Shown here: positions 3,374 through 17,571 of the stretch, one piece after another
Layout of the letters: each line of letters starts with the position of its first letter
How positions within the stretch are numbered: position 1 is the first letter of the stretch
Origin: Desulfurococcales archaeon
GTDB lineage: Archaea > Thermoproteota > Thermoprotei_A > Sulfolobales > Desulfurococcaceae
Reading direction: 5' to 3'
DNA: 19,116 nucleotides
Assembly: GCA_026985375.1 (NCBI GenBank)
Contig: JALSQP010000014.1
Location: 1-19,116, forward strand
Notes under the pieces: model-generated
What the model saw: the letters and a program-made list of their open reading frames with translations, nothing else
The model's database searches: none
Told to the model about the DNA's origin: nothing
Made by a program: the position numbers and the translations under genes

Positions 3374-3451
3374 TGGCGGGCCCGCCGGGATTTGAACCCG
3401 GGATCTCCGGCTCCGGAGGCCGGCGCCTTATCCAGGCTGGGCTACGGGCCC
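3374..3451 (-). tRNA. tRNA-Arg(CCG)
   Basis: The minus strand folds into a complete tRNA: acceptor GGGCCCG with CGGGCCC, a GCC/GGC D-stem, anticodon stem CCGGC/GCCGG around the loop CTCCGGA (anticodon CCG, reading CGG Arg codons), T-stem CCGGG/CCCGG with TTCAAAT loop, discriminator G and encoded CCA (3374-3376). There is no intron. An A/T-rich TATA-like stretch (about 3480-3494) sits at the expected upstream distance, inside the metG 3' end. Two partial copies of its 3' side lie downstream at 1453-1501 and 1-43, so this gene appears to be a favoured insertion site. Arginine tRNA genes are known targets of archaeal virus and plasmid integrases. Confidence 0.95.
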
Positions 3452-15403: not shown

Positions 15404-16681
15404 ATGGCTAAGTCCTCGAGGATCAAGGGTTTCTATAAGCTAAGTCTTGACGAAAGACTTAAGATAGTTGCAGAGTGGGCAGGCCTCAGTGATGAGGAGG
15501 TAGAGCTCCTCAGGAATCTCGGTAATCTTCCCGAGAAAATAGCTGATAGTATGATCGAAAATGTGATCGGTGGCATGACTATGCCCTTCGCCGTAGCGGT
15601 TAACTTCAGGATCAACGGCAAGGACTACCTTGTCCCAATGGTTATCGAGGAAACAAGTGTTGTAGCCGCAGCGAGTAATGCCGCTAAGATGCTCAGGGAG
15701 GGTGATGGAATAACAGCTAGGGCTGGCCCCCAGGAAATGATCGGGCAGGTCATGCTAGTTAACGTGACTGCCCCCCGGTACAAGGCCATGAAGATAATCG
15801 AGCATAAGGAGGAAATACTAGATCATGCGCGGCAACAAGACTCGACACTACTAAGACTCGGAGGCGGTCCTAGAGACCTTGAGGTACGCGTCCTAGACTC
15901 TAAGATCGGACCAGTCATAGTCGTTCATCTAATCGTTGACGTCTTAGACGCCATGGGCGCTAATGCTGTAAATACCATGGTTGAAAGCATCGCACCATTA
16001 CTCGAGAAGATCACGGGTGGTGAGGCGAGGCTAAGGATCATAAGCAACTATGCTACAAGAAGAATGGTCCGGGCATGGGCGAGAACCAGGCCAGAGAACG
16101 TTGGTGGAGAAGATATAGCGAAGAAGATTGTGGAGGCAAGCATACTGGCGGATATTGATCCGTACAGAGCAGTGACGCACAACAAGGGAATCATGAATGG
16201 AATAATAGCAGTAGCTCTCGCCACAGCACAAGATCATAGAGCAATCGAGGCTGGAGCCCATGCCTACGCCGCTCGTACAGGAGTATACAAACCGCTCAGC
16301 CACTGGGAGCTAGACGATGAAGGATATCTTGTTGGAGACATCGAGCTACCAATGCAAGTAGGTATCGTTGGTGGGGCGACAAAGGTACACCCAATAAGCA
16401 GGATAGCCCTGAAAATACTTGGCGTAAAGACCGCTAAAGAACTAGCAGAGATTATGGCTGCTGTCGGATTAGCACAGAATCTCGCTGCATTACGTGCACT
16501 GGTACATGAGGGAATACAGAAAGGACACATGAGACTACATGCTAGAAACCTAGCAATAATGGCTGGTGCTCAGGGCGAGCTCATAGACAAGATAGCGGAG
16601 AGAATGATTAGTGAGGGGAGAATAAGGTTCGACTATGCAAAGAAGCTCCTCGAAGAATATCTAAAGGGAGAAGCAAAATAA
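15404..16681 (+). CDS. mvaA: Hydroxymethylglutaryl-CoA reductase, class II
   Basis: This 425-residue enzyme interconverts HMG-CoA and mevalonate, the committed step toward archaeal isoprenoid lipids. It follows the class II pattern (as in Pseudomonas mevalonii): ENVIGGMTMPFAVAVNF at the substrate-binding entry, Glu83 in MVIEETSVVAAAS, the nucleotide-binding DAMGANAVNTMVE, Lys261 in THNKGIMNG, Asp277 in ALATAQDHRAIEAG and His375 in GIQKGHMRLHARN near the mobile C-terminal flap. Although the class is often called degradative, several archaea use it for synthesis, which is the likely role here. AGGTGG lies six bases before the ATG. Ten bases after its stop begins a structured RNA candidate. Confidence 0.95.
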   Translation: MAKSSRIKGFYKLSLDERLKIVAEWAGLSDEEVELLRNLGNLPEKIADSMIENVIGGMTMPFAVAVNFRINGKDYLVPMVIEETSVVAAASNAAKMLREGDGITARAGPQEMIGQVMLVNVTAPRYKAMKIIEHKEEILDHARQQDSTLLRLGGGPRDLEVRVLDSKIGPVIVVHLIVDVLDAMGANAVNTMVESIAPLLEKITGGEARLRIISNYATRRMVRAWARTRPENVGGEDIAKKIVEASILADIDPYRAVTHNKGIMNGIIAVALATAQDHRAIEAGAHAYAARTGVYKPLSHWELDDEGYLVGDIELPMQVGIVGGATKVHPISRIALKILGVKTAKELAEIMAAVGLAQNLAALRALVHEGIQKGHMRLHARNLAIMAGAQGELIDKIAERMISEGRIRFDYAKKLLEEYLKGEAK

Positions 16682-16690
16682 GGCTAGAGA

Positions 16691-16780
16691 ACGAAAATAT
16701 AGTATGGCCGCGACGCCCAGGCAAGTCCTGGCGGGATGAAACGGCCAGGGACGTATTCACCGTCATCCATATATTTTCGT
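16691..16780 (+). ncRNA. Candidate structured RNA with 16S rRNA complementarity
   Basis: These 90 bases fold by eye. ACGAAAATA (16691-16699) pairs with TATTTTCGT (16772-16780), and after a TAG bulge TATGG (16703-16707) pairs with CCATA (16767-16771). Inside, GGCCG (16706-16710) can pair with CGGCC (16742-16746), alternatively using the two shared Gs. Above that, CCAGG (16717-16721) pairs with CCTGG (16727-16731). The loop between these stems, CGA opposite GGATGAAA, has the GA-rich asymmetric form of a K-turn. The unpaired CAGGGACGTATTCACCG (16746-16762) is exactly complementary to the conserved archaeal 16S segment around E. coli 1369-1385. No canonical CUGA D box or ACA end is visible. A pyrimidine run (TTCTTTTTCC, 16785-16794) follows. 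Confidence 0.6.
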
Positions 16781-16845
16781 AAAGTTCTTTTTCCAAAAAT
16801 CAGTAAACCTATGCAGAGCCAAGTCCTATGGATTAAGGGAGAAAC

Positions 16846-17571
16846 ATGTTGCTGTCGAGAAACTATGATATAATAATCATTGGTGCCGGGTATACAGGTC
16901 TCGCAGCAGCTGCTTCACTCCTCGAAAACAAATATAATGTACTCGTGATCGAGCCCGAACCAGGGCTTTCACAGTACACTTACTATGCCGGATTAGGTGA
17001 TAAAGCCTACATCGATGATAGTGTAATTGATTTCTTAACCAAGTCCGGAGTAAAGGTTTTCAGCGATAATGATAAGAAGTGGATAAGGCCTCTCGAATAC
17101 ATCGTCAAGCTTTCCTCGAGAATACTCGACCTTGGTGGCGAAATCATTGTTAACACTGATCTAGAGCCTCTGTTCTCACCCAGCGAAACAGGGATAGTGA
17201 TGAAGGGCATTATTATTAGAGAGCCCGACGAGCACATGTTCGGCGATAAAGAAATAATAGGTTCGCGAATAGTCGTCGATGCAACGGCTAACGGTTATTT
17301 AACAAGCTTAGTGCTGGATAGACTTAAGATCAGTGTTGTATCGGAGGGTTTAGGCCCTATTATTCCTGGTTCGCAGGAACTTGTTGAGAGGACCTACTGG
17401 CTAATTCCCGGATTTATTGCTGCCGGTATTTCTGCCGCGATGATTTATGGTTGTAGTCAGCCATGGCCCTATGTCTCGCCATTAATCCTTAGCGGTCTCA
17501 GGGTTTTTGAGCTTGTTAGAACCGGGTATAGCGGATATGTATCTAATCCTCTTCCTCCAAATGTGATCTAG
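16846..17571 (+). CDS. Thi4-like FAD/NAD-binding protein, diverged
   Basis: This 241-residue Rossmann protein begins DIIIIGAGYTGLAAAASLL (GxGxxG at 13-18) and VLVIEPEPG. VVDATANGY (143-151), VERTYWLIPGFIAAGISAAM and a final LILSGLRVFELV match, in order, the VVDATG, 'E.T..V.PGL..AGMAA' and 'LSG..AAE' segments of Thi4/ribulose-bisphosphate-forming R15P isomerase-family proteins. The usual glycine-rich GGG-W segment after the first acidic residue and the RMGP motif are missing (here SQYTYYAG and QPWPYVSP), so thiazole synthesis as in standard Thi4 is doubtful. It is probably a cytoplasmic flavoprotein of unknown substrate. GGGAG precedes the ATG. It is convergent with the GPT gene, five bases apart. 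Confidence 0.75.
   Translation: MLLSRNYDIIIIGAGYTGLAAAASLLENKYNVLVIEPEPGLSQYTYYAGLGDKAYIDDSVIDFLTKSGVKVFSDNDKKWIRPLEYIVKLSSRILDLGGEIIVNTDLEPLFSPSETGIVMKGIIIREPDEHMFGDKEIIGSRIVVDATANGYLTSLVLDRLKISVVSEGLGPIIPGSQELVERTYWLIPGFIAAGISAAMIYGCSQPWPYVSPLILSGLRVFELVRTGYSGYVSNPLPPNVI

Follow-up and report, generated by a model that had tools for sequence, protein, structure and literature searches.

In a canonical box H/ACA guide RNA, a two-part guide flanks an unpaired UN in the target, and the lower stem is 7 to 9 bp long. Box C/D sRNAs carry box C (RUGAUGA) and box D (CUGA) instead. The eukaryotic snR30/U17 RNA is essential for pre-rRNA processing without modifying. Pyrobaculum sRNAs sR203 to sR210 were reportedly presented in Bernick 2012. 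In the parts of PMC4652768 drawn on here, these H/ACA-like sRNAs have a kink-turn hairpin, no lower stem, and a downstream ANA or degenerate NCA box, with generally two long free arms that form a pseudo internal loop; the canonical distance of ACA from the stem is given as 14 to 16 nt. For snR30, the corresponding parts of PMC7991803 report no known pseudouridylation site and pairing at the pocket bottom in its 3′ hairpin, and state that no archaeal homologue has been identified.

We analyzed a 19,116-nt stretch of DNA (the window) from a Desulfurococcales archaeon. The host is a heat-loving archaeon. A first-pass annotation of the window had marked positions 16691 to 16780 as a candidate structured RNA: a 14-bp outer stem was thought to enclose a K-turn-like hairpin and a 17-base stretch antisense to 16S rRNA. 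The antisense match is exact, with CAGGGACGTATTCACCG at 16746-16762 being the complement of 16S CGGTGAATACGTCCCTG. The features of the locus are as follows.

15404..16681, + strand: HMG-CoA reductase gene upstream of the RNA element, context only (TIGR00532, 468 bits; PF00368)
16674..16683, + strand: possible TATA-like element, CAAAATAAGG, about 30 nt upstream of P1 and overlapping the HMG-CoA reductase stop codon
16692..16701, + strand: 5′ arm of the A+T-rich outer stem of the first-pass annotation, genus-limited (flank folding)
16705..16710, + strand: stem P1, 5′ strand, TGGCCG, pairing with 16742-16747 (compensatory changes in all 7 P1 pairs, 23 aligned relatives)
16712..16714, + strand: kink-turn left side, GAC (A and C invariant in alignment A5, 23 relatives)
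16717..16731, + strand: capping stem-loop P2, CCAGG-CAAGT-CCTGG (covarying pairs in alignments A2 and A5)
16733..16739, + strand: kink-turn right side, GGGATGA, family consensus GGATGA (first G and TGA invariant in A5)
16742..16747, + strand: stem P1, 3′ strand, CGGCCA, pairing with 16705-16710
16748..16762, + strand: free 3′ tail of 15 nt, GGGACGTATTCACCG, complement of 16S CGGTGAATACGTCCC
16763..16765, + strand: TCA, a possible degenerate NCA box replacing ACA (sequence)
16770..16779, + strand: 3′ arm of the outer stem, genus-limited (flank folding)
16786..16792, + strand: T-rich run, TCTTTTT, a possible transcription terminator (sequence)

A DNA search of 40 genomes of the same family gave matches in 12, all of which have the hairpin and the invariant tail in common. 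A covariance model, R1, matched 38 of 229 genomes of the class, including diverged copies that revealed the general plan. A second model, R2, was run on the 229 class genomes and then on 398 genomes of the phylum (class included). Both the hairpin and the tail were required for a copy to be kept, and irregular copies (e.g., those of G525, G184, G187, and G507) were included. The kept set comprises 56 copies from 27 genera, found in 50 of the 229 class genomes and in 6 genomes outside the class. The distribution is patchy, and family f9 is absent from the 56 copies. The R2 tallies of 150/229 and 30/398 are not counts of the RNA, because they include matches to the antisense strand of 16S genes, where the tail alone is present. 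Nine such matches lack the hairpin (L106, L112 [30 nt], L113 [57 nt], L130 to L132, L134, L135, and L143), and further R2 matches of similar length and score are presumably of the same origin. The search covered this one phylum plus a pattern scan of named contigs; the scan gave 13 matches, including Pyrodictium and Staphylothermus metagenome-assembled genomes (MAGs) and one match without the hairpin in a Desulfobacteraceae MAG. With the Rfam 15 covariance models, positions 16600-16900 of the window gave no match at the element up to an E value of 5, and no same-strand match was obtained for 4 element loci (to E 0.1) or 18 further loci (to E 1), the latter yielding one opposite-strand match to Pab91 (E 0.95). 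Among the literature matches listed, no title or abstract describes this RNA. Judging from its sequence, we concluded that the element is a conserved RNA.

In the family plan, one strand of a 7-bp stem, P1, is followed by RAC, the capped stem P2, GGATGA, the other strand of P1, a single base, and the tail. At the level of the consensus, RAC and GGATGA read as a kink-turn with a C-G pair, a three-base bulge, and tandem G.A pairs. An early alignment of family copies had 4 of 9 pairs covarying. Across 23 aligned copies (22 distinct rows), compensatory changes affect every one of the P1 pairs, and 97.4% of P1 cells pair. The covariation score was 0.664, compared with 0.223 for shuffled alignments (0 of 500 shuffles as high), and it fell to 0.27 or less when the pairing was slid by one to three columns. 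A left [AGT]AC together with a right TGA is present in 55 of the 56 copies. The register is canonical in 33 of 56, and a one-base shift occurs in genera g1, g5, g6, g7, and g11, the window among them. We concluded that the predicted hairpin is under selection for its fold. The suggestion of a structured RNA with a K-turn-like hairpin is supported by the covarying P1 and the invariant kink-turn bases, although the conserved fold differs from the one first drawn.

The outer stem does fold in the window (minimum-free-energy structure, z = -2.65), and it had been expected to enclose the RNA and to be conserved. However, pairing between the flanks is strong in only 4 of 6 genomes of the host genus (-12.2 to -14.8 kcal/mol); the other two gave -5.2 and -6.9 kcal/mol. 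Flank pairing is weak in genera g5, g7, and g11 (-1.4 to -6.9), and in g12 it ranges from -6.2 to -12.8 but with different pairings. The outer stem was thereby ruled out as part of the RNA, and we take it to be genus-limited and outside the conserved element. No lower stem in cis could be aligned among the copies, with genera other than the host genus, g5, g7, and g11 judged by eye.

Directly after the predicted stem, the tail is complementary to 16S rRNA over at least 15 nt. We take its target to be about positions 1369 to 1383 of E. coli 16S, on a strand that is presumably conserved and close to the decoding region. Of the 56 copies, 45 have the same 15-nt tail, and the calculated duplex with 16S has an energy of -28.8 kcal/mol. 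A single-base change in G065 gives a G.U pair with that genome's own 16S; a single-base change also occurs in G138, a genome in which 16S was not found. The 16S gene was likewise not found in the host draft (990,945 bases in 164 contigs). A motif search of 50 RNA-bearing genomes found 16S in 10, and all 10 carry CGGTGAATACGTCCCTG. Since the host draft gave no 16S, the alignment with 16S that had been proposed is demonstrated for the genus, through G007, and not for the host itself. A 17-nt match to one 16S gene would arise by chance on either strand of the window with a probability of about 0.003, in agreement with the original view that coincidence was unlikely; conservation of the sequence across genera is a much stronger argument, and the copies in 27 genera rule out a chance match. 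The site is the same in 8 of the 9 genomes without a kept RNA in which it was found (13 searched). Guide-target covariation is not demonstrable, because the 16S site hardly varies. At three loci (L149 to L151, in G444, G285, and G237), intron-like sequence seems to split the 16S gene itself, a few bases 3′ of the target.

Opposite the single base between P1 and the tail lies the U that directly follows the paired site in 16S, which we take to be about E. coli U1384. The single base varies (19 C, 14 A, 14 G, and 9 T) and is therefore not fixed by 16S. All 10 carrier 16S genes read have U-G directly after the paired site, and 9 of them have U-G-CUCC; the remaining one, that of G065, has UGCCC after the site rather than UGCUCC. 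One copy from each of four genera (g56, g60, g63, and g206) is without 3 to 4 nt of the tail. In these shortened tails, 5 to 6 nt beside the stem and 8 to 9 nt further on still pair, with AAU(A) looped out; of the four, the copy of G182 was compared with the 16S of its own genome.

In the same genomes, R2 found further RNAs in which this hairpin is followed by other tails. One of these, L094, lies in the host genome (G000:C7:4067-4109, minus strand) and resembles Rfam PyrR205 (E 3e-4; 34.4 bits, below the gathering score of 35.6); another, L110, resembles HgcG (E 2e-5; 30.7 bits, below the gathering score of 77). PyrR205 and HgcG are box H/ACA families. By eye, L101 and L110 have a lower stem with an adjacent ACA. 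L094, L097, and L100 represent a sibling H/ACA RNA with a conserved 5′ flank and ACA, L094 being the copy scanned against Rfam. The element thus has its predicted hairpin plan in common with box H/ACA RNAs from these genomes. We regard it as H/ACA-like, since R2 retrieves RNAs of that type with the same hairpin. An atypical guide RNA had been among the options first listed, and the H/ACA-like architecture is in line with it. Exact complementarity to ten 3-kb loci around 16S was at most 12 nt for 13 of 14 sibling RNAs, and a search for canonical H/ACA targets of the siblings, in 16S loci only, gave none that was convincing.

In 22 of the 56 copies, from 17 of 27 genera, an ACA begins 14 to 21 nt downstream of the tail start, compared with 3, 7, and 1 copies (3, 6, and 1 genera) for the next three 8-nt intervals. 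It is absent from the 14- to 21-nt interval in 34 of 56 copies, including that of the window, which has TCA. The first-pass annotation had set box H/ACA RNAs aside for want of an ACA; this is correct for the window copy but not for the family, given the ACA in 17 genera and the H/ACA RNAs found by the model. In family f1, 13 of 16 copies have NCA or ACA at the position of the window TCA, and parts of PMC4652768 describe NCA boxes for H/ACA-like RNAs. The ACA of the family is often further from the stem than is canonical.

The 8 nt upstream of P1 contain GGAG in 12 of the 56 copies and 8 of 27 genera; by number of genera, it is the commonest 4-mer there. It is absent from this position in 44 copies and 19 genera, the host's included. 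The best TATA start falls between -40 and -29 relative to P1 in 15 of the 21 genera outside family f1. The GGAG genus count was reached in 4 of 20,000 permutations, and the TATA count in 1 of 2,000 shuffles (shuffled mean, 7.1); these odds, like the ACA comparison, are flattering, because the motifs and intervals were chosen after the sequences had been inspected. In 23 of the 33 copies with the canonical register, the bases flanking P1 on its two sides pair with each other, so that GGAG may in part extend P1. That pairing also weakens the argument from the varying base, according to which the base between stem and tail is free of 16S. In g59, GGAG could instead pair with CCTCC downstream. The 5′ flank is not conserved between genera, and there is no conserved 5′ guide arm.

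With a TATA-like box 29 to 40 nt before P1, the predicted leader is a few bases long; its position suggests that the RNA has its own transcript with little 5′ leader. For the window, CAAAATAAGG is a possible TATA-like element by analogy with the other genera only. Ten of the 27 genera have T-runs no more than 60 nt from the tail start. We infer that the RNA is transcribed as its own short RNA. Genes for Cbf5 and Nop10 were each found in 4 of 4 host-genus genomes searched, including the host. The host Cbf5 gene (G000:C56:6159-7146, minus strand) was matched in two pieces, as in all 4 genomes of the genus searched; this is as expected if an intron is present, as in other crenarchaeal Cbf5 genes (intron-bearing according to parts of PMC2738675).

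We give a probability of about 50% to the reading that the element is a small archaeal box H/ACA-like RNA, consisting of one kink-turn hairpin and a 3′ tail, that guides pseudouridylation of U ~1384. In this reading, L7Ae would bind the kink-turn, and Cbf5-Nop10(-Gar1) would bind the stem and the ACA/NCA region. The tail would pair with 16S at ~1369-1383, with its first 5 to 6 nt acting as the 3′ guide. Because all 15 nt of the tail are complementary to 16S, the rRNA could replace the missing strand of the lower stem: the next 8 to 9 nt of the tail and 16S would form, in trans, the lower stem that is absent from the RNA. The U that immediately follows the paired site (CCC-U-G in 16S) would then be placed at the active site and converted to pseudouridine. 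In some genera, a GGAG preceding P1 could pair with CUCC of 16S, two nucleotides beyond the paired site, which fits a short 5′ guide with U-G left unpaired. The shortened tails of four genera support the proposed split into a guide of 5 to 6 nt and a lower stem of 8 to 9 nt. Together with the ACA spacing, the varying base, the U-G after the site, and GGAG, they point to pseudouridylation of U ~1384 as the most likely function. Against a guide, the continuous 15-bp duplex is much longer than the usual short 3′ duplex of H/ACA RNAs.

That length is what one would look for if the same H/ACA-like RNP were non-modifying, with the long helix clamping the 1369-1383 strand during 30S assembly and being released later. 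Such a particle would be, in concept, an archaeal counterpart of eukaryotic snR30/U17. The continuous pairing of at least 15 nt, the lack of a GGAG-type 5′ guide in 19 of 27 genera, and the position of the target strand, presumably conserved and close to the decoding region, all fit an assembly role. The shortened tails do not, since they keep a 5- to 6-nt segment beside the stem, as a modification pocket would, and the varying base opposite U and the GGAG signal resemble such a pocket too. Parts of PMC7991803 leave room for other H/ACA roles in archaeal ribosome formation. We consider the assembly role the chief alternative to a modification guide, though on the unlikely side.

We find it improbable that the RNA acts in regulation or stress by masking the 16S strand of mature 30S subunits (hibernation), with the kink-turn serving for stability only. 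A target presumably close to the decoding region would suit such an RNA, as would the TATA-like box that precedes the stem in 15 of 21 non-f1 genera, but this reading leaves the H/ACA architecture and the enrichment of ACA unexplained.

The first-pass annotation had also raised a regulatory 3′-UTR element, which here would belong to the HMG-CoA reductase mRNA. We inspected the gene neighbors of 31 of the 56 copies by open reading frames (ORFs), with family searches for a few loci. In genera g1, g5, g7, and g11, 10 of 11 loci have a same-strand ORF of 425 to 462 aa at 22 to 46 nt upstream of the RNA, and family search named HMG-CoA reductase in 4 of the 10 (the window, L019, L021, and L023); the eleventh locus, L017, is short, and its upstream ORF was not found. 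This arrangement, and the outer stem seen in 4 of the 6 host-genus genomes, are what a cis-acting element would predict. However, HMG-CoA reductase lies upstream only in those four genera among the 31 loci, the nearest ORFs of the remaining loci differ as far as sequences were inspected, other genera have the TATA-like box, and the tail is fixed by its match to 16S. A 3′-UTR element is thus very unlikely. Elsewhere in the window, small ORFs at 385-2454 include a PIN-domain protein (644-1093) and a DUF3368 protein (1918-2454), perhaps toxin-antitoxin pairs, and a tRNA-Arg (CCG) gene lies at 3374-3451. The gene after the RNA (16846-17571) encodes a Thi4-like FAD protein that scores above the Pfam cutoff for Thi4 but well below the NCBIfam cutoff for thiazole synthase.

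An atypical box C/D guide is hardly credible: GATGA resembles box C, but positions 16691-16780 contain no CTGA, as the first-pass annotation had observed in setting aside a standard C/D RNA, and the element has nested covarying stems and no Rfam match in the window up to E 5.

One sibling RNA points to a second case. L136 has a 15-nt complement to 16S TACGGCCGCAAGGCT, the 16S sequences being from other genomes and not L136's own. Searched as an exact pattern (ATGA, stem strand, then the tail), this tail was found in 3 of 398 phylum genomes, all of one genus outside the class (L136/L170 in G453, L169 in G449, and L171 in G461), with compensatory changes in the stem. These sequences perhaps represent a second RNA of similar plan; the geometry is less clear, because the stem may extend into the tail.

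More broadly, we propose, tentatively, a widespread archaeal class of H/ACA RNPs with a single long 3′ tail, in which rRNA would replace the lower stem, acting either as substrate-completed guides or in 30S assembly. If so, the element would represent a new substrate-completed guide geometry or the first archaeal H/ACA RNP devoted to 30S assembly. In either case, it is an RNA family conserved across part of the phylum, without a model in the Rfam searches made, for which one predicted modification site (or assembly step), presumably beside the decoding region, can be named. By implication, neither a lower stem nor a conserved 5′ guide may be indispensable to H/ACA RNAs. This is relevant to what a minimal guide is, to whether a substrate can complete a guide, and to whether archaea use H/ACA particles for ribosome assembly, as eukaryotes do.

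Like eukaryotic snR30/U17, the element is an H/ACA-type RNA predicted to pair with rRNA other than through the usual modification pocket, a likeness of pairing and not of compared sequence. Like canonical archaeal box H/ACA RNAs of the Pyrococcus abyssi type, it has an upper stem with a kink-turn, a 3′ guide right after the stem, and, in many genera, ACA. Unlike them, it has no conserved lower stem in cis and no conserved 5′ guide, its 3′ complementarity is longer, and its ACA often lies beyond the 14 to 16 nt given in parts of PMC4652768. It resembles Pyrobaculum sR203 to sR210 in having a kink-turn hairpin without a lower stem and, in the window, TCA as an NCA-type box. In contrast to those RNAs, with generally two free arms, the 3′ arm of the element alone is conserved, and it pairs continuously over at least 15 nt.
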